A stretch of DNA of 64,000 bases from NCBI GenBank assembly GCA_024229935.1, contig JAAERX010000094.1, positions 62,001-126,000 on the forward strand, written 5' to 3'. Origin of the DNA: Gammaproteobacteria bacterium. GTDB taxonomy: Bacteria > Pseudomonadota > Gammaproteobacteria > Steroidobacterales > GCA-2729495. Below the pieces are notes generated by a model, which did not search any database, had not been told where the DNA came from, and saw nothing but the letters and a program-made list of their open reading frames with translations. Below, piece by piece: positions 1 through 49,919 of the stretch. Both the position numbers and the translations under genes were made by a program. The stretch's first letter is position 1. Every line of letters begins with the position of its first letter.

Positions 1-237
1 AGCAAATGCATCAAGTGCGGCTGGCTTATAGTTCATTGTCAGGAAAATGCCGGTCCATAACTGGATAATCAGCACCACAAATGCCAGCACACCAAAAACA
101 TACCAGAAGTTGAAATTCTTACCCGCATAGTACTCAGTCGCATGCTCACGCATCATTTTACTGAGCGGGAAACGGGCATCTATCCATGCAAGCAAACGAG
201 TTCCCTGACTTTCACCAGTTACTTCTACACTACTCAC
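1..237 (-). CDS. petB: cytochrome b of the bc1 complex, N-terminal part (cut by window edge)
   Basis: Membrane subunit of ubiquinol:cytochrome c oxidoreductase, which binds both b hemes and the quinone sites. Only the first 79 codons lie in the window. The visible N-terminus contains LLAWIDARFPL, then a KNFNFWYVFG stretch leading into the first transmembrane helix and ending in IFLTMNYKP, which is typical of bacterial cytochrome b. The start is a GTG whose last two bases form the TGA stop of petA (GTGA overlap), so the two subunits are translationally coupled. The rest of the gene, and probably cytochrome c1, lies to the left of the window. Confidence 0.93.
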   Translation of the reverse strand, partial: MSSVEVTGESQGTRLLAWIDARFPLSKMMREHATEYYAGKNFNFWYVFGVLAFVVLIIQLWTGIFLTMNYKPAALDAFA

Positions 238-2628: not shown

Positions 2629-2751
2629 GTTTAACTCGGAAATAGTACGTGCCGGAACGGCATACGTTTCAGGCACCAATTCTATAGAACCTGCAACGAT
2701 TGTGTATGATTATGCGCTCATTAGCTGACCAGCTTCATTAGGAAACCGGAT

Positions 2752-3732
2752 ATGTTGCTTGACCTTATATACATCGTTATCGGTTTTGGACTGCTGATCT
2801 GGGGTGCAGATCGCTTTGTTATTGGTGCCAGTTCAACCGCAAGTATTCTGGGCGTACCACCCCTGCTGATCGGCCTAACCGTGGTTGGCTTTGCCACCTC
2901 AGCACCGGAAATTCTGGTATCTGTCTCAGCTGCAACACAAGGGCTTTCTGGCATAGCTGTCGGCAATGCTCTGGGTTCAAATATTGCCAATATTGGCCTG
3001 GTGCTAGGTTTAACTGCGCTGATAGCCCCTATCAATGCCACCCACTCGGCAACCTTGCGCAAAGAAATTTCATTACTGATTTTACTAACCCTGGCAACCA
3101 TGCTGCTGTTTTTGGATAACTCTTTGGATCGGCTGGATGGCCTCATTCTCATAGGTGGTCTAATTATATTTCTTGGCTGGGTAACCCGCACAGGCATGCG
3201 ACTAAGTACATCAGACCCACTGGCTTCAGAACTGACGCAGGAACTAACCAGTGAATTACCCACACAACTTAGCTGGAAAACAGCGGGTTTGTGGCTGATA
3301 CTTGGGCTGACGACCCTGCTGATTGGCGCAAACCTACTAGTAGCTGGTGCCGAAAATCTGGCCGTGCGTATGGGCATTAGTGAACTGGTCATTGGGCTCA
3401 CCATTGTTGCAGTAGGTACCAGCCTGCCGGAACTGGCAGTCTCTGTAATCAGTGCCCTAAAAGGCGAAACAGGCATCGCAATCGGCAACATCATTGGCTC
3501 TAATGTATTCAACCTGCTGGCGGTTGTGGGTGTTGCCGGGCTCATCCACCCAATACAGCTAGATCCGTCTGTATTAACCCTGCATTACCCAGTGATGGCT
3601 GTATTTACGCTGGTGCTGCTGCGCTTAGCGTACAATCCTTTTGGCACAGCTGGTCTGGGACGCATCACGGGATTTTGCCTGCTGGCAGCTTTCTTTGCAT
3701 ACCAAACCACCCTGCTAACAGGTAATTTATAA
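2752..3732 (+). CDS. yrbG: calcium/sodium antiporter, YrbG family
   Basis: Inner-membrane cation exchanger of the CaCA superfamily, 326 residues. Two homologous Na_Ca_ex halves are evident, each carrying an alpha-repeat: GNALGSNIANIGLVLG in the N-half and GNIIGSNVFNLLAVVG in the C-half, with matching FATSAPE and VGTSLPE motifs whose acidic residues bind the cation. The halves are separated by an acidic loop around residues 145-175. AGGAAA about 10 bases before the ATG is a good ribosome binding site. It heads the Kdo/Lpt cluster as in E. coli, where the neighbour relationship is conserved but yrbG is not needed for LPS export. Confidence 0.93.
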   Translation: MLLDLIYIVIGFGLLIWGADRFVIGASSTASILGVPPLLIGLTVVGFATSAPEILVSVSAATQGLSGIAVGNALGSNIANIGLVLGLTALIAPINATHSATLRKEISLLILLTLATMLLFLDNSLDRLDGLILIGGLIIFLGWVTRTGMRLSTSDPLASELTQELTSELPTQLSWKTAGLWLILGLTTLLIGANLLVAGAENLAVRMGISELVIGLTIVAVGTSLPELAVSVISALKGETGIAIGNIIGSNVFNLLAVVGVAGLIHPIQLDPSVLTLHYPVMAVFTLVLLRLAYNPFGTAGLGRITGFCLLAAFFAYQTTLLTGNL

Positions 3733-3769
3733 ATAACTCAGCAAGACAAAAGCAGCGGAGTTTCTGCAT

Positions 3770-4768
3770 ATGAGCAAATCGTCGGATAACAAGTATTCAG
3801 CTAATACGGACACAGGCGTAACTGCCCGACGCGTACTTGAGATCGAGGCGCGCGCTATACAAGAACTTGTACCACGGGTCGGCGCAAGCTTTGCTAAAGC
3901 ATGTGAGCTTTGCCTTGCCTGTGAAGGTCGGGTAGTCGTTACCGGCATGGGCAAATCCGGGCACATTGCTGGCAAACTGGCCGCCACCCTCGCCAGTACC
4001 GGTACCCCGGCATTTTTTGTCCACCCTGCTGAAGCCAGTCATGGTGACCTCGGCATGATTACACGGAAAGATGTAGTTATTGCACTTTCAAATTCTGGTG
4101 AAACCGCCGAAATAATTACTCTGCTACCGCTCTTAAAACGACTTGGCCTGGCACTGATCACGTTAACAGGGAAAACAGACTCAACACTGGCTGAAGCTGC
4201 AGATGCAGTAATTGATATCGGCGTTAGTGAAGAAGCCTGCCCCCTGAACCTTGCACCAACTGCAAGTACCAGTGCAGCACTGGCAATGGGCGATGCGCTT
4301 GCTGTTGCATTACTCGAAAAGCGCGGCTTCACTTCAGAAGACTTTGCCATGTCTCACCCAGGCGGCACTTTGGGGCGCAAACTTTTACTGCGTATTAAGG
4401 ATCTGATGCATACCGGCGACAAAGTGCCACATGTTTCTGCCAGTACTTCGGTTATTGATGGCCTTATGGAGATGACCAGCAAAGGGCTGGGGATGACCGC
4501 TGTGACAGATACAACCGGAAAATTACTGGGCATGTTCACTGATGGTGATTTACGACGCAAACTTGACCAGAAAATTGATCTGCATGCCTCCACAATGGAA
4601 CAAGTTATGACCAAAGATTGCAAAACAGCCTCATCAGAAATGCTGGCAGCAGAAGCAGTGCTCTTGCTGGAGCAAAATAAAATTAATGCACTATTAATTG
4701 TCGATACCAAAAACAAGTTAATTGGCGCACTCAATATTCACGATCTGTTTCGTGCGGGGGTCATGTAA
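3770..4768 (+). CDS. kdsD: D-arabinose 5-phosphate isomerase
   Basis: Converts D-ribulose 5-phosphate to D-arabinose 5-phosphate, the first step of Kdo synthesis. The 332-residue protein has an N-terminal SIS domain (about 40-180) with the phosphosugar-binding VTGMGKSGHIAGK and SNSGETAEI segments and the conserved His in ASHGDLGMI, followed by tandem CBS domains (about 205-325). It lies 37 bases after yrbG and one base before kdsC, in the conserved kdsD-kdsC-lptCAB operon. Confidence 0.97.
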   Translation: MSKSSDNKYSANTDTGVTARRVLEIEARAIQELVPRVGASFAKACELCLACEGRVVVTGMGKSGHIAGKLAATLASTGTPAFFVHPAEASHGDLGMITRKDVVIALSNSGETAEIITLLPLLKRLGLALITLTGKTDSTLAEAADAVIDIGVSEEACPLNLAPTASTSAALAMGDALAVALLEKRGFTSEDFAMSHPGGTLGRKLLLRIKDLMHTGDKVPHVSASTSVIDGLMEMTSKGLGMTAVTDTTGKLLGMFTDGDLRRKLDQKIDLHASTMEQVMTKDCKTASSEMLAAEAVLLLEQNKINALLIVDTKNKLIGALNIHDLFRAGVM

Positions 4769-4769
4769 A

Positions 4770-5288
4770 ATGGTTTATAAGAAAGTTGACATGGACCACG
4801 TCCACGTACTAGCTACAAAAATTCATCTACTGGTACTGGATGTTGATGGTGTGCTGACTGATGGACAACTGCACTTTGACGCCAAAGGTAATGAGTGCAA
4901 AGTTTTTCATGTGCACGATGGTTATGGTATCCGACAAGTACTTACAGCAGGAATAGAAGTCGCCATTATTTCCGGCCGTAAATCTGTTGCAGTAGAAAAA
5001 CGGGCTGCAGAGCTCGGCATTCAGCATGTATTCCTCGGTATCAAGGAAAAGTCTGCGGTACTGAAAAAGCTCATAACACAACTAAAGATTGATATGCCGG
5101 CTGTTGCCTGCGTGGGTGATGATACCCCCGACCTAGTCTGCATGCAGCAGGCGGGACTGGCCGTAGCAGTTGCTGATGCACACCCTGATCTGGATGCTGT
5201 CGCAGACTGGCATACCCACCACGGCGGTGGCCATGGTGCTGTAAGGGAAGTATGCGACCTTTTGCTAACAGCCCGTACTGTAGTCTGA
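4770..5288 (+). CDS. kdsC: 3-deoxy-D-manno-octulosonate 8-phosphate phosphatase
   Basis: HAD-superfamily phosphatase that releases Kdo from Kdo-8-phosphate. The nucleophile motif is LDVDGVLTDG, the Thr/Ser motif lies in IISGRKS, and the acidic motif is VGDDTPDL. The compact C0 fold of about 170 residues matches the family, which acts as a tetramer. The ATG at 4770 is preferred because it follows the kdsD stop by one base and has a GGGGG stretch at a usable distance. The ATG at 4791 (MDHVHV) is a possible alternative. An open frame continues further upstream inside kdsD and is unlikely to be translated. Confidence 0.95.
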   Translation: MVYKKVDMDHVHVLATKIHLLVLDVDGVLTDGQLHFDAKGNECKVFHVHDGYGIRQVLTAGIEVAIISGRKSVAVEKRAAELGIQHVFLGIKEKSAVLKKLITQLKIDMPAVACVGDDTPDLVCMQQAGLAVAVADAHPDLDAVADWHTHHGGGHGAVREVCDLLLTARTVV

Positions 5289-5297
5289 GTAACCCCC

Positions 5298-5861
5298 TTG
5301 AACACGCCCGAACCACGCACCATTCTGTCACTGACACTGCTATTAGTTGGAGCAGTTGTGAGCACATTTATAGTATCCGAACTCTGGAAAGAAGACAGCA
5401 AACCTGCACATGCTGAATTAAGTCTCGCTTACTATCTGGACCAGGCGGAACTCACTGGTACAGGACCAGATGGGAAAATGCTTTTTCAGGTATGGACACG
5501 ACGCGCAGCTCAGTCTCTTGGTGACTCAAGCATTGAAATGGATGAGGTGCAGATGGTCTATGGACCACCTACAGCATTACCCTGGAAGCTAAATGCCAAT
5601 ACTGGAAGAATTCCGGCAGATGCCAGTGTTATTGAACTAAGGGGTGATGTAGTTGCAGTATCTGTAACTGAAGAAACCAAACCAACTATTATCCGAACCC
5701 AAAGACTGGATATAGACCCCACAACCAGACAAGCAAAAACATCACACAAAGTAATACTTGAGTTTGATGGGCGCATTATCAATGCAACAGGTATGCACGC
5801 AAACTTTGAAACCAATGAGCTACAATTGTTATCCAATGTTAATGGTAAATTTCTTCCCTGA
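5298..5861 (+). CDS. lptC: LPS export system protein LptC
   Basis: Bitopic inner-membrane protein that takes LPS from the LptB2FG transporter and hands it to LptA. The 187-residue product has one N-terminal transmembrane helix (about 8-27) followed by a periplasmic beta-jellyroll. The sequence is divergent, as usual for this family, so the call leans on length, topology and position between kdsC and lptA. Translation appears to start at TTG (5298); no ATG lies before the membrane segment. The 3' end overlaps lptA by 26 bases. Confidence 0.9.
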   Translation: MNTPEPRTILSLTLLLVGAVVSTFIVSELWKEDSKPAHAELSLAYYLDQAELTGTGPDGKMLFQVWTRRAAQSLGDSSIEMDEVQMVYGPPTALPWKLNANTGRIPADASVIELRGDVVAVSVTEETKPTIIRTQRLDIDPTTRQAKTSHKVILEFDGRIINATGMHANFETNELQLLSNVNGKFLP

Positions 5862-9182: not shown

Positions 9183-10079
9183 ATGCGGCTTATTATTGTC
9201 AGCGGCCTGTCAGGTTCAGGCAAATCTGTTGCGCTGGATGCACTTGAGGATATGGGTTTTTACTGCATTGATAATATTCCTGTTGCCCTGCTCGGCGGCT
9301 TAATTAATCAACCCATTGAGTCAAGAGATGCCCTCTATAAAAATATGGCCGTAGGTGTTGATGCGCGTAACCAAGCTACTAACCTAGAGTCGCTGCCTGA
9401 CCTGCTCCATTCACTAAAAAATCAGGGTGTACGCTATGAAATTGTATTCCTGCATGCAGAAGACCAGGTATTACTAAAACGTTACAGGGAAACCCGACGC
9501 CCGCATCCTTTACGAACGGGAAATATGAGCCTGCTTGATGCAATTCTTAAAGAAAGGGAATTGCTGGGTTCAATCACCTGCTCAGCTGATCTGGTTATCG
9601 ACACAACCAATACCAGCATCTATGAACTACGTGAGTCACTCAGTAACCGTATTGGCACGCATGAGCAAGCCGGATTATCTATTCAGATTGAATCATTTGG
9701 TTTTAAACACGGTATACCCTTTGATGCAGATTTTGTTTTTGATGTGCGCTGTTTGCCAAACCCCTATTGGGAAATCAAATTAAGGCCCTTGGATGGCAGA
9801 GATGAGGCGGTACAAAAGTTCCTTGCTGGCCACGATATAACGGGCATCATGTATATGGATATCATTAATTTTCTGCATAATCGCATCCCCGAGCACCTTG
9901 AACATAAGCGTAATTATCTGACTATTGCGATAGGCTGTACTGGCGGACAGCACCGCTCTGTTTATCTTGTAGAGAAAATTGTAGGTGAACTCCAGAAGGA
10001 TTATCCCAACGTTATTATCCGGCACAATGAACTGCCAGCTGCAACCCTATCTGACGATAAGCCAACTACCATAGCGTGA
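9183..10079 (+). CDS. rapZ: RNase adapter protein RapZ
   Basis: In E. coli RapZ senses glucosamine-6-phosphate and directs the sRNA GlmZ to RNase E; homologues are nucleotide-binding proteins. The 298-residue protein begins MRLIIVSGLSGSGKS with a Walker A P-loop and has the conserved C-terminal domain containing GCTGGQHRSV, which holds the metabolite- and RNA-binding surface. The start directly follows the hpf stop. In most relatives ptsN sits between hpf and rapZ; here it is missing. Confidence 0.96.
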   Translation: MRLIIVSGLSGSGKSVALDALEDMGFYCIDNIPVALLGGLINQPIESRDALYKNMAVGVDARNQATNLESLPDLLHSLKNQGVRYEIVFLHAEDQVLLKRYRETRRPHPLRTGNMSLLDAILKERELLGSITCSADLVIDTTNTSIYELRESLSNRIGTHEQAGLSIQIESFGFKHGIPFDADFVFDVRCLPNPYWEIKLRPLDGRDEAVQKFLAGHDITGIMYMDIINFLHNRIPEHLEHKRNYLTIAIGCTGGQHRSVYLVEKIVGELQKDYPNVIIRHNELPAATLSDDKPTTIA

Positions 10080-10188
10080 CCTGACGCACTTTCCCCGCTA
10101 AACTCACCCTGCCTGAGCCACTTAGGGCTGCATATATGCAAGCCCGGTGCCTAAACTAAAGCCGCATCTTCGATGCCGAGGGTCCAGC

Positions 10189-11538
10189 ATGGAACTCGAA
10201 GCAAAACCAAAAATTGATCTTGGTACGCTGAGTGATGCACTCGAGCGCGGCATGATGCAACAAGCTGCTGGGCTGATTGAAGATCTCAATCCGGCAGAGA
10301 TTGCTCTGCTCATCGAATCCCTACCACCAGCAAGACGTAACATAGTCTGGAACCTGGTCAGTGAAGAGGATGATGCAGAGGTACTTGCAAAACTCAATGA
10401 TGAGGTTCGTACCCGCCTGATGAAAGGCATGGATACCAAAGAACTTCTTAATGCAACAGAAGGTATGGAACTGGATGACCTTGCTGACGTGGTTGCCGAC
10501 CTGCCGGAATCAATCACAAAACAAGTAATCCATTCACTCAACCAGCGTGACCGAGAACGACTTGAAGCAGTTTTGTCTTACCCTGAAGACAGTGCAGGCG
10601 GACTAATGAATCCGGACACAATTACGGTCCGGCCAAATGTCTCACTTGAAGTTGTACTGCGCTATTTGCGTGCGCTCGGAAAACTACCTGATAACACCTA
10701 TTCTCTGTTTGTTGTTGATCGTAATGACAAATATTTAGGTAAGCTGCGTATCTCCCGAATTGTTACACACGACTTAATTGATCCGGTGCGTGACGCTATG
10801 GATAAAGACGCACAAACCTTTACGGCAGAAATGCCAGCCACTGAAGTAGCACGGGAATTTCAGAACCTTGACCTGATTTCAGCTCCAGTTGTTGATGATA
10901 GCGGACATCTGCTCGGTCAGATCACAATTGATGATGTTGTGGATGTGATCAGTGAACAAGCCGATCACGACATACTTAGCATGGCTGGTCTGGATGAAGA
11001 GGATGATATTTTTGCACCCGTTATAGTCAGTGCCGGTCGACGGGCCATCTGGCTTGGCGTCAACCTGGCCACTGCATTTATAGCTGCAGCCGTTGTAGGT
11101 ATGTTCAAGGACACACTGGAGGAGGTGGTTGTGCTAGCCGTACTGATGCCAGTAGTTGCAAGTATGGGTGGTATTGCAGGCACCCAGACTCTGACACTGA
11201 TGATTCGCGGCATGGCTCTTGGTAGAGTAGAAAATAGCAACGCTCGCTGGCTGCTTACTAAAGAAGTTGCAGTAGGGGTTTTTAATGGTTGCATATGGGC
11301 AGCCGTAGTCCTGTTCATCACCATCATTTTCTTTGCTAAATGGGATGTGGGCCTGGTAATTGGTGCAGCCGTAGCAATTAATCTCATTATTGCTGCCTTT
11401 GCAGGTGTCATAGTTCCACTTATTCTGCGGCGTATGAATATAGATGCAGCACTTGCTGGTGGTGTGGTACTAACCACAGTGACTGATGTAGTGGGTTTTA
11501 TAACGTTCCTGGGACTTGGAGCCCTAGTCCTGACCTGA
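10189..11538 (+). CDS. mgtE: magnesium transporter MgtE
   Basis: Mg2+-gated channel of the inner membrane. The 449-residue protein shows the acidic N domain (about 15-130), a CBS pair (about 135-255) that binds Mg2+ and closes the pore, a linker helix, and five transmembrane helices with the signature PVVASMGGIAGTQTLT in helix 2. The ATG at 10189 has GAGGG six bases upstream; a GTG at 10147 would add 14 residues not needed by the family. The 3' end overlaps the convergent patatin gene by 15 bases. Confidence 0.96.
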   Translation: MELEAKPKIDLGTLSDALERGMMQQAAGLIEDLNPAEIALLIESLPPARRNIVWNLVSEEDDAEVLAKLNDEVRTRLMKGMDTKELLNATEGMELDDLADVVADLPESITKQVIHSLNQRDRERLEAVLSYPEDSAGGLMNPDTITVRPNVSLEVVLRYLRALGKLPDNTYSLFVVDRNDKYLGKLRISRIVTHDLIDPVRDAMDKDAQTFTAEMPATEVAREFQNLDLISAPVVDDSGHLLGQITIDDVVDVISEQADHDILSMAGLDEEDDIFAPVIVSAGRRAIWLGVNLATAFIAAAVVGMFKDTLEEVVVLAVLMPVVASMGGIAGTQTLTLMIRGMALGRVENSNARWLLTKEVAVGVFNGCIWAAVVLFITIIFFAKWDVGLVIGAAVAINLIIAAFAGVIVPLILRRMNIDAALAGGVVLTTVTDVVGFITFLGLGALVLT

Positions 11539-40665: not shown

Positions 40666-41526
40666 CTAAACCCTCTGCCAGCCAGCTGGAATCAGATCTC
40701 TTGTATTAAGTTCTTTTGTCCTGAACCAGCTCTGCGGGGCTATAACAATTTTCTCATCTGAACTGTTAAGCCAGGCACCCCACCAGGAAAAACTGCTGTT
40801 GGCGACCACATTGTGTCGGCACTGACTCATCAGAAACATTTCTTCGGAATCACGCATTTGCTCTGATTTAAGCACGTAACTATGCGCCACCCCGGTAAAA
40901 GCATCCTGCTGTTTCACCCAGTCAATATCATCACTGAACACATAGAAATGCGCACCTTGAACTTGTGACTTTATATACTCAATTGCCGCCTGATAGTAAG
41001 CAGGGCTGCAGGTGCCATGGAAATTATTCACCGTCTGATCAGCCACGTAGTCGCCGCGACGGAAATGCACGCTAACCGCGTTAGCTGTCTGAATTTCAGC
41101 CAGATAGGCGCGCGTATCTGCTGCCAAGCCATCAATATCCCATGAGAACTTCTGCCTGATTTCAGCCTCATTACTGATGAAATATTGCTCGCTCTGAAAA
41201 TAGCCATCGATCGCTATAGGGGCAGTCAGCCTGAAAAAGGCCGGATCGACGTGAAAAAATGGCTCTCTGTAAAGCTTTCGACCGAACAACTTGCGCTTGA
41301 GCTTAGCCCCTTTGGATTTTGAGAACAGTGCTTCATGCTGCTCTCTAGTGCAGACCGGCTCATCAATAGCGGTGAATTCACCCAAGTCAAAGTCACGGTC
41401 AGCATAATGCTCAAACGAGAATGTATCCAGACAGAGTGGGGCATCCAGTTTGGATGCCAACGATCTCACCGCTGCATACTGAAACATTTGATTGCCTAAG
41501 CCACCAAGCAGCCTCACTGTTATCAT
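40666..41526 (-). CDS. alpha-1,2-fucosyltransferase (GT11)
   Basis: 286 residues. The GT11 start VRLLGGLGNQMFQYAA and the GDP-fucose-binding motif VSVHFRRGDYV are both intact, followed by FYVFSDDIDWVKQ and a C-terminal NSSFSWWGAWL. It transfers L-fucose from GDP-fucose, usually alpha-1,2 to galactose. The two enzymes that make GDP-L-fucose lie next door (gmd, fcl), and a GT7-type galactosyltransferase-like enzyme is at the start of the island, so Gal-Fuc linkage is a reasonable guess. Only gene of the island on the minus strand. Confidence 0.93.
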   Translation of the reverse strand: MITVRLLGGLGNQMFQYAAVRSLASKLDAPLCLDTFSFEHYADRDFDLGEFTAIDEPVCTREQHEALFSKSKGAKLKRKLFGRKLYREPFFHVDPAFFRLTAPIAIDGYFQSEQYFISNEAEIRQKFSWDIDGLAADTRAYLAEIQTANAVSVHFRRGDYVADQTVNNFHGTCSPAYYQAAIEYIKSQVQGAHFYVFSDDIDWVKQQDAFTGVAHSYVLKSEQMRDSEEMFLMSQCRHNVVANSSFSWWGAWLNSSDEKIVIAPQSWFRTKELNTRDLIPAGWQRV

Positions 41527-41641
41527 TCAATACTCCGAAAACGCCCATCGAACAGCACTACAAAATGACTGCATGTAAGGTGTCAGCTGAACAGAGCCAG
41601 CAGCACGCACTAAAAACAGACCGCTAAGAATTCCAAGCGGC

Positions 41642-41647
41642 TATAAT
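41642..41647 (+). promoter_or_regulatory. candidate -10 hexamer for gmd-fcl
   Basis: Perfect TATAAT 36 bases before the gmd start, in the divergent gap between the fucosyltransferase gene and gmd. The -35 position has no good match, so the call is tentative. Confidence 0.35.
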
Positions 41648-41683
41648 GGCAGTGCCACCAGATTTAGCAATAGGAATAGAAAC

Positions 41684-42793
41684 TTGAAAAAAGCCCTTAT
41701 AACCGGCATCACTGGACAGGATGGTGCCTATCTCGCTGAGTTCCTACTGGGAAAAGGCTATGAAGTCCACGGCATCAAGCGCCGCTCCTCATCCTTCAAT
41801 ACAGCCCGGGTTGATCACCTGTACCATGACTTGCATGAATCAGGCGCCAAATTCTTCCTCCATCATGGCGATCTGACTGACTCGACCAACCTTATTCGGA
41901 TTATCCAACAGGTTGAGCCGGATGAAATTTATAATCTTGGCGCCCAAAGTCATGTTGGCGTTTCCTTTGAGACACCCGAGTACACAGCAGATACTGACGG
42001 ACTTGGGGCCCTGCGAATCCTCGAGGCTATCCGTATTCTGGGGCGGGAAAAACTAACTCGTTACTATCAGGCCTCCAGTTCGGAATTATTCGGCGAGGTT
42101 CAGGAAATTCCGCAAACCGAAACGACACCTTTTTATCCGCGCTCACCCTATGCGGTAGCCAAACTCTATGCATACTGGATAGCGGTCAACTATCGTGAGG
42201 CTTACGGTATTTATGCCTGCAACGGCATTCTGTTTAACCATGAGTCGCCCCTGCGTGGCGAAACCTTCGTAACGCGAAAAATCACCCGCGCCTTGGCGCG
42301 CATTCATCTTGGCCTGCAAGAATGCCTGTACCTGGGCAACATGGATGCACGACGTGACTGGGGTCATGCGCGCGACTATGTTGAGATGCAGTGGTTAATG
42401 CTCCAGCAGGAAGAGCCCGAAGATTTTGTTATTGCGACCGGCAAACAGTACTCAGTCAGAGATTTCGTCAATAGCGCGGCACAGGAGATCGGTGTGGCTA
42501 TTGAATGGCGTGGCGCAGGCGAAGATGAGCAAGGCATCGTCACCGCAGCACCGGAAGACTCTGCCATACAACCCGGCGATACACTGGTTGCAATTGATCC
42601 ACGCTATTACCGCCCGACTGAAGTAGAAACCTTACTTGGCGACCCTTCCAAAGCAAAAACAAAGCTGGGCTGGACGCCAAGAACATCATTTGCCGAGCTG
42701 GTCAGTGAAATGATGACTTCAGATTTGTCCATTGCCAAACGAGATGCGCTGGTGACCGAAGCAGGCTACAAAGCACCCAGCTTCAACGAATAA
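41684..42793 (+). CDS. gmd: GDP-mannose 4,6-dehydratase
   Basis: First step of GDP-L-fucose synthesis: GDP-D-mannose to GDP-4-keto-6-deoxymannose. 369 residues, extended SDR. NADP motif [16 protein letters not shown], the [15 protein letters not shown] stretch, and the catalytic YxxxK in [12 protein letters not shown] with [13 protein letters not shown]. The start is TTG at 41684 (AGGAA upstream). The C-terminal half includes an insertion-like acidic piece ([12 protein letters not shown]) common in longer Gmd proteins. fcl follows by 18 bases. Confidence 0.96.
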
Positions 42794-42811
42794 ACCACCG
42801 GGACTTACATC

Positions 42812-43738
42812 ATGGATATGTCCGCCCCTATTTATGTCTCTGGCCACCGTGGTCTGGTCGGCTCCGCTATTACACGTCAGCTTGAACAGGCGGGCGCGAC
42901 CAATCTGCTGTTACATACCCGGGCAGAACTTGACCTGACTGACCAGTCAGCCGTGCAGGAATTCTTCGCCAGTACTAAGCCCACTTACGTTTTTCTGGCC
43001 GCTGCGCACGTAGGCGGCATTCACGCCAATGACACCTATCCGGCAGAATTCATTCGCGACAATCTGGAAATACAGAATAACGTGATTCATTCAGCCTGGC
43101 AGCACGGCACGTCAAAGCTATGCTTCCTTGGTTCATCATGTATTTACCCACGCATGGCTACTCAGCCTATACATGAGGATTCATTACTGACCGGACCGCT
43201 TGAGCCCACCAACGAATGGTATGCCATAGCCAAAATAGCCGGCATAAAAATGTGCCAGGCCTACCGCAAGCAATACAATTTTGATGCAATCAGCCTGATG
43301 CCAACAAACTTATATGGTCCGGGCGATAATTTTCATCCGGAAAACTCCCATGTGTTACCCGCGATGATCCGGCGCTTCCACGAGGCTAAAGAAAACGGCA
43401 CTAAGGAAGTAACTATCTGGGGCACCGGCACCCCGCGGCGTGAATTCCTGCATGTCGATGATCTGGCCGCTGCCGCGGTTTATCTGACCGAGAGCTATTC
43501 TTCTGTGGATATAGTCAATGTAGGTGTAGGTGAAGACATCAGCATTTTAAATCTGGCGAAACTTGTAGCAGAAGTCATCGGCTACAAAGGGGACATAGCT
43601 ACAGATCCCAGTAAACCGGATGGGACACCTCGTAAACTTCTTGATGTCAGCAGACTCAGCAAACTGGGCTGGCAGGCACGAATTGAATTACGGACAGGGG
43701 TTGAACAAACTTACCAGTGGTATCTCGCCAACTATTGA
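42812..43738 (+). CDS. fcl: GDP-L-fucose synthase
   Basis: Epimerase-reductase completing GDP-L-fucose. 308 residues. NADP-binding [26 protein letters not shown], catalytic [14 protein letters not shown] and the [13 protein letters not shown] segment are all conserved. It forms an operon with gmd. Its last seven bases overlap the end of a convergent phosphomannomutase relic. Confidence 0.97.
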
Positions 43739-46308: not shown

Positions 46309-46715
46309 AGCCAGCCTCGCGATTGCGCTGCTGCAAATGACCAGGCGGTTTTATACGCCATCACCAATAAACTAATATTCGGCATCCCACTCTGTTTCCG
46401 GAACCTAAAGTTATTATGTCTGGGCACAACAGAACTACACCTCAAAATTGTTGAGTCGCGCCATATTTATAGCATCAAGAATAACGCAGCGACTATATGG
46501 CTAACGGTGTTATTGAACATAAGAAGGATTTAGGTAAGACAATTATCCGCTAGTAATGGCCAAAGAAACCAGCATCATAAGATAGCTGGTTCTTCTGACT
46601 TTTATTAACAGCGTAGTAAAGCTCAGGTGGGCGGTTTTGATGCCTTTAGTAATCAACATAACAAAGCCCTCTGACATAAGCCTGTTTTCCTGAAATTTAC
46701 GCTGGTGCAGCAATG
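46309..46715. other. gene-free gap with one hairpin
   Basis: No reading frame with coding character was found. The only structure is an interrupted inverted repeat: AAGAAACCAGC (46563-46573) against GCTGGTTCTT (46585-46594), 10 bp with one bulged A and an 11-base loop. It may be a leader or processing element. Confidence 0.4.
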
Positions 46716-46743
46716 AAAAAGGCCTGCTAAAACAGGCCTTTTT
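46716..46743 (-). terminator. intrinsic terminator of the permease-VCBS gene
   Basis: A perfect 11-bp stem AAAAAGGCCTG/CAGGCCTTTTT with a 6-base loop. On the minus strand it follows the stop of the 1050-residue gene by 23 bases and ends in a T-run; being symmetric, it could also work in the other direction. Confidence 0.9.
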
Positions 46744-46766
46744 CCACATATTTAAATTACTGGTTA

Positions 46767-49700
46767 CTACCGGCTTATACGATAACGGCGGCCTGCTTCC
46801 AGATTACCTGTAATAGTGTTTGTTTCACCTGTAGACCAGGTGACTTCGACACTATCTATTAATGTGTGATCACCCAGCCCAAAATGGACTACCGGCGCAT
46901 CAAAGGATGAAAAACCACCACTTGCCTGCATTTCACGATACTGGGCTCGACCCGCGTAGTTAATCACCACTTTTGAGCCTATACCGGACCGGTTACCCTG
47001 ACCATCGTCCAGCTCAAATAATATTGCATTGCTGTTAGCATTATTATTTTGATAAGCCCATATCGGGCCAAGTACCTCACGTGCCAGGACATCAAGGTCA
47101 CCATCATTATCAATATCAATATAGGTGTAAGCACTAGACTCAGCGAATAACTGCATATCAGCATCATCCGTTCGGTCTACAAAGCCTTGTCCGGCATTGT
47201 TATGAAAGAAGTGGTTGGACTCTCTCGCCACCTGGGTATTTTCATTAAAATAACCATTAACAATATAGACGTCTTGCCACTCATCCTGATCAATATCAGC
47301 AAATTTTGCATTCCAGACCCAGCCAGCCTCACGCAGATTCAGCTCAAGTGCCTCATCAACAAATACCCCGTCATCCTGAGGCACCAGCAACACATTGGCC
47401 CGCCTTGCCCCTTGTGGAATAAGTGTAGTGAAAGCGCCTTTTACGGGCTGGTTCTCAACACGAAAATACTCCATACATACAAGATTCAACGCTTCAAACT
47501 TCCCCTCAAGCATGTAACAGGATTCAGGATCATTCTTCCACCATGACTTAAGATTCAGGTGCATACCAATACACTGACTGGTTAACCCGGCATCATTAAA
47601 ATCCAGACACATAATGGGTTGATTACGACTCAGACTGGTATTCATAATGTACTGATTAGCCCGCACCCTCAGACACTCTTCATGATTGGCCGTACCTTCA
47701 GTATCTACACACATCTCAGGAATACGAATCATTGTGGAATGATCTGTACCACTGACATTACCCATAAATATTTCAAGCCGCAGGTCATTATTTATATCGG
47801 CACTTGTCGCACTCATTGTGAGTAATGTAGTAACCGGAATTATTTCATCACCTTTAACAATCTGCTTAAGGTTACCGGCACCATCACCAAGGTAATACAA
47901 ATCCGGAACAGCAAAATCATTCCCAACAATAAGATCCAGATTGCCATCGCCACTCCAGTCAGAGAGAAGCACTGTCAGTGTTTCACCATCGACCCCCTCA
48001 AGGTCTATACGCTCAAAACTATCACCACGATTTATAAGCACTACATTGCGTGAAGCTTCTCGCCCAAGAAACTTTCGGCTCAATGCAGAACCCAAGGTCC
48101 AGTTACCCAACACAATATCAAGCTGTCCGTCTTTATTGAGGTCACCAAAACCAACAGCAGCACTCACCCAGGCACCTTCATGATTGGGCAAACGAATCTG
48201 ATTAGCATCAGAGAAATCCCCCTGATCGTTATAAACAATATAGGTACCATTGCGATAAGTGGAATAAATAAGGTCAAGCCATCCATCATTATCGATATCA
48301 ACTAATGCGACATTGGCAACAAACTCATCATGAAGACCGGCAATATTGATTTCCTGTTGCTCAAATTGACCACCCGTATTAGCATATAAATAAGCGCCGC
48401 TCTGAGAACTAACTACAACATCAGCCCAGCCATCATTATGGACATCACCGGACGCTATACCGCCAAACTCACTATAGGGCTGAGCCCAGCGCAAAATAGA
48501 GAACTGATAGGGCTGATCAACCCCCAACTGGGCACCAGTCATGCGGGTAAAGAATTTACCGTTACCTGCAACAGGCGTGTTCAGCAAGGTTGAAGAAATA
48601 TTTAGGCCATCAATGGCAGTAGTGTCAGCCCCATCAGGCAACATGACATTAGCCTGCAGCATTGGCTGAATTTCCTCCAGGGAAATACCATCTGCTGCTC
48701 GTTCAGGCATGTACTCAACAACATGGTCAAGCTTGGCCCAGGACTCCAGCATGAATGCATTCTGTTTTGCTGTAGCCCAGTTGCCATAGAGCTGTGCTAA
48801 TACACCTGTACCCACACCGATAGCAGCTATCACCACCCATAAGGTAATGCCTACTTTTCGCGAAATCGTTGTTGCAACGATCATGTAAGAGTAAACGCTA
48901 TAGATACCAAGGGTAAATAACAACACCATTGCATACATGATGGGCATACCAGTAGCCATCAGCACTGAAACCATAATTACATCAAATGTAATAGGCACCG
49001 GCATGAAGACGCCAACCAGTGCCGCCACACACAACCCAAGTAGGATCATCAGGTATGAGCCCCCGGGGAAAAGATTTGCCAGAACATCCATGGGCAGTAC
49101 GGTCACCGCCAGAGAGCCCAAAAAACCTGCCAGCACCATCAGCGGGAGTGTAGTTTTAATGATGTACCAAAGATTTCGTACAGATGCTTTGACGACCCAG
49201 ACAAATGCTTTTGGCCAGGTGCCTATTTCATCATCTTCAGGTACAGGGGCATCCAGTGCCATGTACTTAGGATTACTACTGGCAGCACCCGAAATTGCAT
49301 GCTGTGCAGTCAGTGAGACCTCTTCCTTGAAAAAATACTTGGCTAATAAGGGTATAGCCACAAGCAGGAAAAAAAGCGTAGCACCAATTTTCAGCACGGC
49401 CATATAAAAAGGAAACAGAGAGAAAACCATCGCCAGCACAATGACATTCAACGTAGGCGAACTAATCATAGCCGCAAGTGTTGTTTCTAATCGCAGGCCT
49501 GAAGAATGCAAGCCCTTTGCAATAGGGGCCGCACAATTTACGCATACACCCAACGGGGTGCCTATCAGCACCCCAAGCGCACTATTAGACCATGCACCAT
49601 CAAAACTCTTACGTTTAAACAAGGAGATCATGGTCAGTAACGCAGCAGCAAATAAAATACCAAAGGTCATACCACGCTTATTAGTACGCCCCCAATTAAC

Positions 49701-49919
49701 GGTCCCTTTCAGGACTTTCAGGTAAATGGGATCACTTTCATTAATAATAAAAACGGTATCGAAACCCAGAGGCTCCAGACCGGCTGTGCCTGCCATCATG
49801 GCTTTCTGGTCAAGTGCCGGATAACGGGATTCTGTCCAGAACTCAAATGCCAATCCTGCAACGATTAACAAGGCAAGTAAAAAAGCTTTATTTCTAAAAA
49901 TGGCCATGCTGTCCTGCAC
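46767..49919 (-). CDS. ArsP-like permease fused to FG-GAP/VCBS repeats and an ASPIC/UnbV domain
   Basis: 1050 residues. Part one (1-380) is a polytopic permease of the COG0701/ArsP type: a first helix at 11-27, the cysteine motif VCVNCAAPIAKGL (Cys126, Cys129), MISSPTLNVIVL, and further helices to about 378 (VGVFMPVPITFDVIM). Part two (about 480-940) is a series of FG-GAP/VCBS repeats with Ca2+-loop motifs such as DIDNDGWLDL, DLNKDGQLDIV, DWSGDGNLDLIV and DIDNDGDLDVL, interrupted by a six-cysteine stretch. Part three (about 960-1050) is ASPIC/UnbV: GIGSKVVINYAG, HFGLGDHTLIDSVEVTWSTG. The propeller part is probably periplasmic. Substrate unknown. Monocistronic, with its own terminator. Confidence 0.85.
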   Translation of the reverse strand: MQDSMAIFRNKAFLLALLIVAGLAFEFWTESRYPALDQKAMMAGTAGLEPLGFDTVFIINESDPIYLKVLKGTVNWGRTNKRGMTFGILFAAALLTMISLFKRKSFDGAWSNSALGVLIGTPLGVCVNCAAPIAKGLHSSGLRLETTLAAMISSPTLNVIVLAMVFSLFPFYMAVLKIGATLFFLLVAIPLLAKYFFKEEVSLTAQHAISGAASSNPKYMALDAPVPEDDEIGTWPKAFVWVVKASVRNLWYIIKTTLPLMVLAGFLGSLAVTVLPMDVLANLFPGGSYLMILLGLCVAALVGVFMPVPITFDVIMVSVLMATGMPIMYAMVLLFTLGIYSVYSYMIVATTISRKVGITLWVVIAAIGVGTGVLAQLYGNWATAKQNAFMLESWAKLDHVVEYMPERAADGISLEEIQPMLQANVMLPDGADTTAIDGLNISSTLLNTPVAGNGKFFTRMTGAQLGVDQPYQFSILRWAQPYSEFGGIASGDVHNDGWADVVVSSQSGAYLYANTGGQFEQQEINIAGLHDEFVANVALVDIDNDGWLDLIYSTYRNGTYIVYNDQGDFSDANQIRLPNHEGAWVSAAVGFGDLNKDGQLDIVLGNWTLGSALSRKFLGREASRNVVLINRGDSFERIDLEGVDGETLTVLLSDWSGDGNLDLIVGNDFAVPDLYYLGDGAGNLKQIVKGDEIIPVTTLLTMSATSADINNDLRLEIFMGNVSGTDHSTMIRIPEMCVDTEGTANHEECLRVRANQYIMNTSLSRNQPIMCLDFNDAGLTSQCIGMHLNLKSWWKNDPESCYMLEGKFEALNLVCMEYFRVENQPVKGAFTTLIPQGARRANVLLVPQDDGVFVDEALELNLREAGWVWNAKFADIDQDEWQDVYIVNGYFNENTQVARESNHFFHNNAGQGFVDRTDDADMQLFAESSAYTYIDIDNDGDLDVLAREVLGPIWAYQNNNANSNAILFELDDGQGNRSGIGSKVVINYAGRAQYREMQASGGFSSFDAPVVHFGLGDHTLIDSVEVTWSTGETNTITGNLEAGRRYRISR

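Follow-up and report, generated by a model that had tools for sequence, protein, structure and literature searches.

The window analysed here, a stretch of 64,000 nucleotides from a Gammaproteobacteria bacterium (contig JAAERX010000094.1 of the assembly GCA_024229935.1, positions 62,001 to 126,000), contains a gene in which an ArsP_1-like permease is fused to an FG-GAP propeller resembling that of CRTAC1 and to a C-terminal UnbV_ASPIC domain. The join is real and owes nothing to chance or assembly, and the safest statement is that the two halves form a conserved permease-propeller unit of the inner membrane. Tentatively, and because the neighbouring genes point there, this unit may serve, as a module coupled to the membrane, to decorate or export a surface glycan or a secreted polymer, at times a sulfated one. 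The parts belong to known families and their combination appears to be undescribed in the searchable literature: a search that had most subscription-journal papers outside its scope found no description of an architecture of permease, FG-GAP and ASPIC domains, and in the same scope nothing relevant was found on the sulfotransferase and on CRTAC1-family names. An earlier note on this DNA, made from its letters, had known of no described transporter with an ASPIC domain, and the searchable literature supports it in this.

The frame is intact on the minus strand from 46767 to 49919 and counts 1050 residues from a GTG at 49919 or 1046 from an ATG at 49907. The ATG is probably the start, because the closest homolog (75% identity) begins near the equivalent site; the GTG is possible and would add four residues, and all residue numbers are counted with this GTG as 1. 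The features of the gene are the following:

46767..49907, minus strand: fused gene of an ArsP_1-like permease, a CRTAC1-like FG-GAP propeller and a UnbV_ASPIC domain, 1046 amino acids (frame, Pfam, homologs)
48792..49667, minus strand: ArsP_1 permease region, residues 85-376 (Pfam, AlphaFold models)
Residues about 11-30, minus strand: N-terminal helix, probably transmembrane, upstream of the ArsP_1 region (AlphaFold models)
49524..49544, minus strand: CxNCxxP motif (CVNCAAP, residues 126-132), at a helix break or beside it (alignment, model)
47031..48560, minus strand: FG-GAP beta-propeller, residues about 454-963, with D-x-[DN]-x-D loops of the Ca2+ type and split by a helical insert (Pfam, model, CRTAC1 match)
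47466..47723, minus strand: helical six-cysteine insert, residues about 733-818, probably of disulfide-bonded hairpins (alignment, model, cysteine counts)
46782..46985, minus strand: UnbV_ASPIC domain, residues 979-1046 (Pfam, CRTAC1 superposition)
46715..46744, minus strand: terminator-like hairpin 3' of the gene (folding; not on the list of the terminator pattern scan)

In Pfam, the window protein reaches 44.1 bits with ArsP_1 (PF03773, cut-off 32.3), 107.1 bits with FG-GAP_3 (PF13517, cut-off 26.9) and 64.2 bits with UnbV_ASPIC (PF07593, cut-off 23.4). All 19 aligned fused proteins, the window's and 18 others, match ArsP_1 (at E 0.001), FG-GAP_3, FG-GAP and UnbV_ASPIC, and the 1050-residue frame of permease, propeller and ASPIC domain that the earlier note had read is confirmed. 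An assembly or sequencing artefact, which would be the trivial explanation of such a frame, has a likelihood of practically nil and is refuted, because full-length homologs with the same domain order recur in many independent assemblies and complete plasmids.

With the permease alone as query and at E 1e-15, matches were found for the order in 14 of 396 genomes, for the class in 9 of 369 and for the phylum in 3 of 398; the window's own genome is counted in all three. These are 25 distinct permease matches, 19 of which lie in fused frames (the window included) and six stand alone. A scan by pattern plus tblastn found 275 relatives, and among the 80 of them that were kept, 71 are fused, four split and four alone, and one (L118) is without an open frame. 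The two sets overlap (L021 and L071, for example, are the same gene, and L041/L140 and L043/L126 the same records). The scan extends the distribution over Gamma- and Alphaproteobacteria and to records titled Myxococcales, Deltaproteobacteria, Planctomycetota, Owenweeksia and Roseivirga, but the titles of metagenome bins can mislead, as L104, titled Myxococcales, groups with gammaproteobacterial split rows. Eight Rhodobacterales plasmid records carry the fused protein over at least 80% of the query; seven of them annotate it as 'FG-GAP-like repeat-containing protein', and the eighth has separate open reading frames (ORFs) for a 'permease' and a 'CRTAC1 family protein'.

The split form is informative for the relation of the two halves. 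In four loci from one genus of the window's order (L041, L043, L044 and L045), a permease of 373-377 amino acids is followed with a gap of 0 by a propeller gene of 657-671 amino acids that has an N-terminal signal peptide (read by eye; Pfam was run on that of L045), and a fifth permease of the genus, L042, lies at a contig end. Permease and propeller genes are adjacent with a gap of 0 also in L104, and L116 has the split arrangement with a 3-base gap and is cut by the contig end. In L124 and L138, the gene of the secreted propeller is one gene away and on the opposite strand, and the gene right after it is that of a sulfotransferase (Pfam on that of L124). L147 and L066 have no propeller in the DNA examined, the contig of L147 beginning about 1 kb upstream, and L131 is cut at the edge. 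In a permease tree, made with a quick method and no mixture model and having some long branches, the split rows form two clades, one beside fused rows in a supported group and the other sister to the fused alphaproteobacterial clade. At least four changes between the fused, split and stand-alone states are needed on this tree, with gain and loss not distinguished, and between fused and split there were at least two, the halves usually staying neighbours. The split form, with its signal peptide on the propeller gene, is evidence for export of the propeller and for joint work of the two halves. An exported propeller is in line with the periplasmic location suggested in the earlier note. The description as a single-gene system, in contrast, is not supported in that form, since elsewhere the unit consists of two adjacent genes and part of the relatives have sulfotransferase, glycan-modifying and type II secretion genes beside it.

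Both halves are under purifying selection. The ratio of nonsynonymous to synonymous substitution rates (dN/dS, by Nei-Gojobori) was taken for ten pairs of close homologs. It ranges from 0.036 to 0.145 in the permease and from 0.044 to 0.148 in the propeller, values that are rough, as at least half of the pairs have a dS above 1. The permease value is low in all ten pairs and equal to or below that of the propeller in seven, and neither half looks dispensable.

ASPIC/CRTAC1 propellers are common in bacteria, and to our knowledge no role has been assigned to them. The AlphaFold model of the full protein (predicted local distance difference test, pLDDT, 81.3; predicted template modelling score 0.71) has helices up to about residue 395, then the propeller with its helical insert, and the ASPIC domain. 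Among PDB entries, murine CRTAC1 matches this model best (Foldseek E 7e-18), and chain 9etn_A of this protein superposes on the predicted propeller and ASPIC domain over 441 residues (VIA-align Z 34.5, root mean square deviation, rmsd, 2.4), so that this part of the model has the CRTAC1 fold; the same chain is found with a sequence profile at E 7e-29, and the periplasmic half also resembles integrin heads in the PDB. The D-x-[DN]-x-D loops are shared with the CRTAC1-family ASPIC proteins (PF07593 with PF13517), and calcium may be bound there, but in contrast to those proteins the propeller is tethered to the membrane via the permease and has the helical six-cysteine insert inside. Each cysteine of this insert (737, 749, 771, 783, 801 and 815) is conserved in all but one or two of the 19 aligned proteins (17 or 18), and the periplasmic half has exactly six cysteines in 70 of the 85 fused proteins that reach 900 amino acids. 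It is likely that the insert is a disulfide domain, as the earlier note had supposed. Five loci (L023, L024, L047, L048 and L050) have a second, larger cysteine-rich insert between permease and propeller, and 17 or 18 cysteines are counted in the periplasmic half of five fused proteins, which are probably the same.

In the permease, Cys126 and Cys129, already pointed out before, are the two cysteines of the CVNCAAP sequence. The CxNCxxP motif is present in 98 of 98 loci, and as the pattern-plus-tblastn scan was searched with part of it, only the homology-found set is unbiased for the motif; in the 24-row permease alignment from the homology searches, too, no row departs from the C, N and C of CxNC. 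P127, S149, P150, N153, P304 and S336 are among the other invariant columns of these 24 permeases (alignment numbering), and in the permease model the invariant C, N and C and several of the P, S and N sit at or a few residues from predicted helix breaks. With the ArsP_1 permeases (ArsP, SO_0444, SaoE), the region shares a Pfam score above the cut-off and a cysteine-containing motif followed by a proline, but it differs from them in the fusion to a periplasmic half of about 650 residues and in the motif itself: L155, the single canonical ArsP_1 relative compared, reads CSCTVLP, a CxC-type motif that we take to be typical of ArsP_1 and that the CxNCxxP family does not have. The window permease also stays far from the cut-offs of the models for the SO_0444 family of Cu/Zn efflux proteins (NF033936, 14.7 of 300 bits) and for SaoE (NF040736, 21.6 of 325 bits).

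The permease modelled alone (pLDDT 82.4) gave no Foldseek match at E 0.001 or below, the best being E 0.22. In a second structural comparison, most of the top 32 rows are elevator-type carriers (NaDC1, INDY, NaS1, CNT, ArsB) with Z 8-11 and rmsd 4-8 (Z up to 11.1, with rmsd 4.9); these scores lie in a range for which the tool warns that it may mean a common arrangement only. The possible likeness to the elevator-type ion transporter superfamily (NaDC, INDY, NaS1, ArsB) consists in a weak overall fold match with helix breaks in two halves, and the identity in the matched rows is as low as 7-13%. A CcdA/DsbD-like electron carrier was considered for the CxxC and dropped without a formal test, the permease having no conserved cysteine in its second half. 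As for a YeeE-like thiosulfate carrier, which was also considered, there is none among the 50 fold rows shown, an absence that excludes nothing. ArsQ, which is annotated as gluconate-permease-like in PMC8552651, was not used for comparison.

For the mechanism of the unit, it can be proposed that a small solute crosses the inner membrane through the N-terminal permease, an ArsP_1 relative whose helices are broken, with CxNCxxP at a helix break as the likely binding site. The last membrane helix would lead into the periplasm, where the CRTAC1-type calcium propeller with its putatively disulfide-bonded helical insert and the ASPIC domain would receive the solute or dock an acceptor polymer. The enzymes modifying the glycan or polymer could then be the sulfotransferases and the methyl-, fucosyl-, pyruvyl- and glycosyltransferases that are encoded next door in part of the relatives. 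The earlier note had thought of export paired with external sensing, adhesion or binding, of which we infer the transport. A more specific proposal is that of a general envelope machine, so far undescribed, in which the permease with its cysteine-lined site passes a small activated or sulfur-bearing group through the inner membrane to the covalently attached propeller, which thereby decorates surface glycans or type II-secreted fibres. This is doubtful, but if true it would be the first transporter known with a CRTAC1 domain and a possible bacterial model for the function of CRTAC1/ASPIC.

Sulfotransferase genes are enriched near the permease-propeller genes. They occur in the examined flanks in 7 of the 24 homology-found genomes, with 1.05 expected from the genome-wide counts of three Pfam families (P 3e-5), and in 6 of 19 with 1.03 expected (P 2e-4) when near relatives are merged. 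The numbers are higher, but biased, in a version with 49 genomes (19 with 2.3 expected, and 12 of 25 merged lineages with 2.1 expected), which is why the 24 genomes are relied upon: the 25 others were picked after their neighbourhoods had been seen. The observed sulfotransferases were detected at E 1e-4 with profiles made locally out of these same neighbours, which gave 36 of 99 loci prior to pruning, and the background with Pfam at E 1e-5, where the three families are summed and a gene may count twice. Five presumed TPR-only rows were removed by hand (L060 with 772, L080 with 724 and L110 with 958 amino acids, L074, and L081), two of them in the 49 genomes, and of the five it was L060 only that was checked by Pfam. 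Pfam confirms one sulfotransferase in each of the 7 positive genomes, not each of the 9 genes, and L142, which is counted in the 49-genome version, fails Pfam at 1e-5. A motif filter for sulfotransferases was not used, as it missed true members.

Other neighbours also point to surface glycans or secreted polymers. Of the 58 loci with alphaproteobacterial titles (L118, whose main frame is not open, included), 40 have one or more of the following: Sel1 proteins, a small secreted protein, and a secreted fibre-like protein of about 400 amino acids that corresponds by position to an NCBI product named 'tail fiber domain-containing' on two plasmids, and 30 have type II secretion or prepilin-type genes. 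Pfam is the basis for the A24 peptidase, Sel1 and secretin and plasmid annotation for some, the other neighbour clusters having been named by eye; ORF clusters 16, 25 and 54 were left aside because they resemble antisense ORFs of GC-rich genes. Rhodobacterales and Maricaulis do not share one gene order, which speaks against synteny as the sole cause. A variable slot often lies between the fibre-like gene and the fused gene, and of 20 chosen neighbours, mostly from this slot, 14 match sulfotransferases, glycosyl-, methyl- or pyruvyltransferases, GSCFA or DegT families (one of them, in L098, below its cut-off) and six match nothing. On the plasmids, the neighbours include a sulfotransferase and a methyltransferase on one, a methyltransferase, a GSCFA protein and NodZ on others, and polysaccharide export-type genes near the fused gene on three, and on one plasmid an annotated phosphoadenylyl-sulfate reductase and a sulfotransferase are the next two downstream genes, on the opposite strand.

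Several points weigh against the decoration or export of a glycan or polymer by this unit. Seventeen of the 24 genomes, the window's included, have no sulfotransferase in the examined flanks, and neighbourhoods vary between lineages. In the window's own genome, stand-alone ASPIC genes, too, lie near sulfotransferases, so that the sulfotransferase link may be a trait of ASPIC propellers at large. L066, a stand-alone relative of the permease, has an MbnH gene beside it instead. Neighbourhood as such is also an indirect kind of evidence. On the side of the permease, the modelled fold match to elevator-type carriers is no more than suggestive, and a PDB sequence search with the permease profile found no relative at E 10 or below.

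A rival explanation, rather unlikely in comparison, is an efflux pump for soft metals or metalloids, in which the CxNC permease would expel a thiol-loving solute such as copper, zinc or an arsenical, for capture or further transfer by the periplasmic half. The ArsP_1 match and the weak similarity to the SaoE and SO_0444 models argue for it, as does L066 (9216-13787), where the stand-alone CxNC permease lies beside a gene of an MbnH-family di-heme enzyme (494.5 bits, cut-off 362.85) and near a MerR-like regulator gene, all matches of which are below the cut-offs; this locus is possibly a copper operon. SO_0444 is annotated from zinc and copper stress phenotypes in PMC3219624, and the review PMC13188914 places the SAO system of SaoE with organometallics and has an SO_0444-family selenoprotein with a UxC motif. 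But both equivalog cut-offs are missed by far, the canonical relative L155 has CSC where this family has its own motif, and among the neighbours scanned (the smaller part of all) or annotated, no metal genes were noticed beside fused loci. Another rival is an exporter of a natural product, as found in biosynthetic clusters, in which the propeller would be the periplasmic partner for binding or self-protection. AMP-binding or nonribosomal peptide synthetase-like genes (named by eye) are present in 8 of 99 loci, L082 among them, and asparagine synthase-like genes in 10 of 99; the Erythrobacteraceae locus L112 combines a GT8 gene, an asparagine synthase resembling lasso cyclases, two sulfotransferases, an Asp/Arg hydroxylase and an ABC transporter. 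The name UnbV, presumably coming from enediyne clusters, would fit as well; the literature search found no paper with both words. As such loci are a minority and the lasso cyclase model is matched with 250 bits against a cut-off of 525, this explanation is unlikely. Clusters of the L112 type are possibly an undescribed peptide or glycan pathway. Relatives of some of the L112 neighbours, not of every gene per locus, are found also in L115, L125, L129, L130 and L145 from Erythrobacteraceae or sphingomonads (Pfam was run on L112 only).

That the protein is a surface adhesin or sensor with the permease as an inert membrane anchor is very unlikely. It would agree with the similarity of the periplasmic half to CRTAC1 and integrin heads and with a large Ig-like protein gene that 4 of the 8 plasmid homologs have as their next or almost next downstream gene, but an inert anchor would hardly have the low dN/dS of this permease, its invariant sites cluster in the putative transport site, and it persists as its own gene in the split forms. 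The records in which an ASPIC/CRTAC1 propeller is joined to a permease bear titles of Pseudomonadota, Myxococcota, Bacteroidota and Planctomycetota. This link, the changes between fused and split forms and the sulfotransferase excess make the function testable in cultured roseobacters and in Maricaulis; Shimia sagamensis, Tateyamaria omphalii and Maricaulis maris are cultured carriers. In most of the plasmid records the product name 'FG-GAP-like repeat-containing protein' hides the permease, and a widespread but unstudied family gains a concrete functional hypothesis.

In the window, the fused gene is probably its own transcription unit, as the hairpin at 46715-46744 folds well (13 pairs, -20.8 kcal/mol, z -4.2). 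Of the terminator claimed in the earlier note, the hairpin stands, but the terminator pattern scan gave no terminator at this place and most of the U run is itself paired, and a terminator after the gene is plausible, not proven. The 3' neighbour on the same strand encodes a PAS-GGDEF-EAL protein, and the 5' neighbour is a divergent gene of a PCMT-type methyltransferase. Past the GGDEF-EAL gene, at 40666-43738, lie fucosyltransferase-like, GDP-mannose dehydratase-like and GDP-fucose synthase-like genes (named by eye), which have no counterpart in the flank examined of the nearest relative, L071.

Elsewhere in the window's genome, a large exopolysaccharide-type cluster (L165, G000:C162, 1603-12541; genes named by eye) has at least five sulfotransferase matches and a stand-alone ASPIC protein gene at the contig end, and another contig with a stand-alone ASPIC match (L166, G000:C165) bears the genes of a sulfatase-like secreted protein (by eye) and of a sulfotransferase at 2751-5822 and 9502-10413. 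Five of the eight plasmids with the fused gene are typed as rep_cluster_252 (H1, H2, H5, H6 and H8, corresponding to L154, L161, L153, L163 and L152), and on one of these five a replication initiator protein A is encoded. For Leisingera nanhaiensis, PMC4148953 describes a RepA-I plasmid as dominated by polysaccharide genes.

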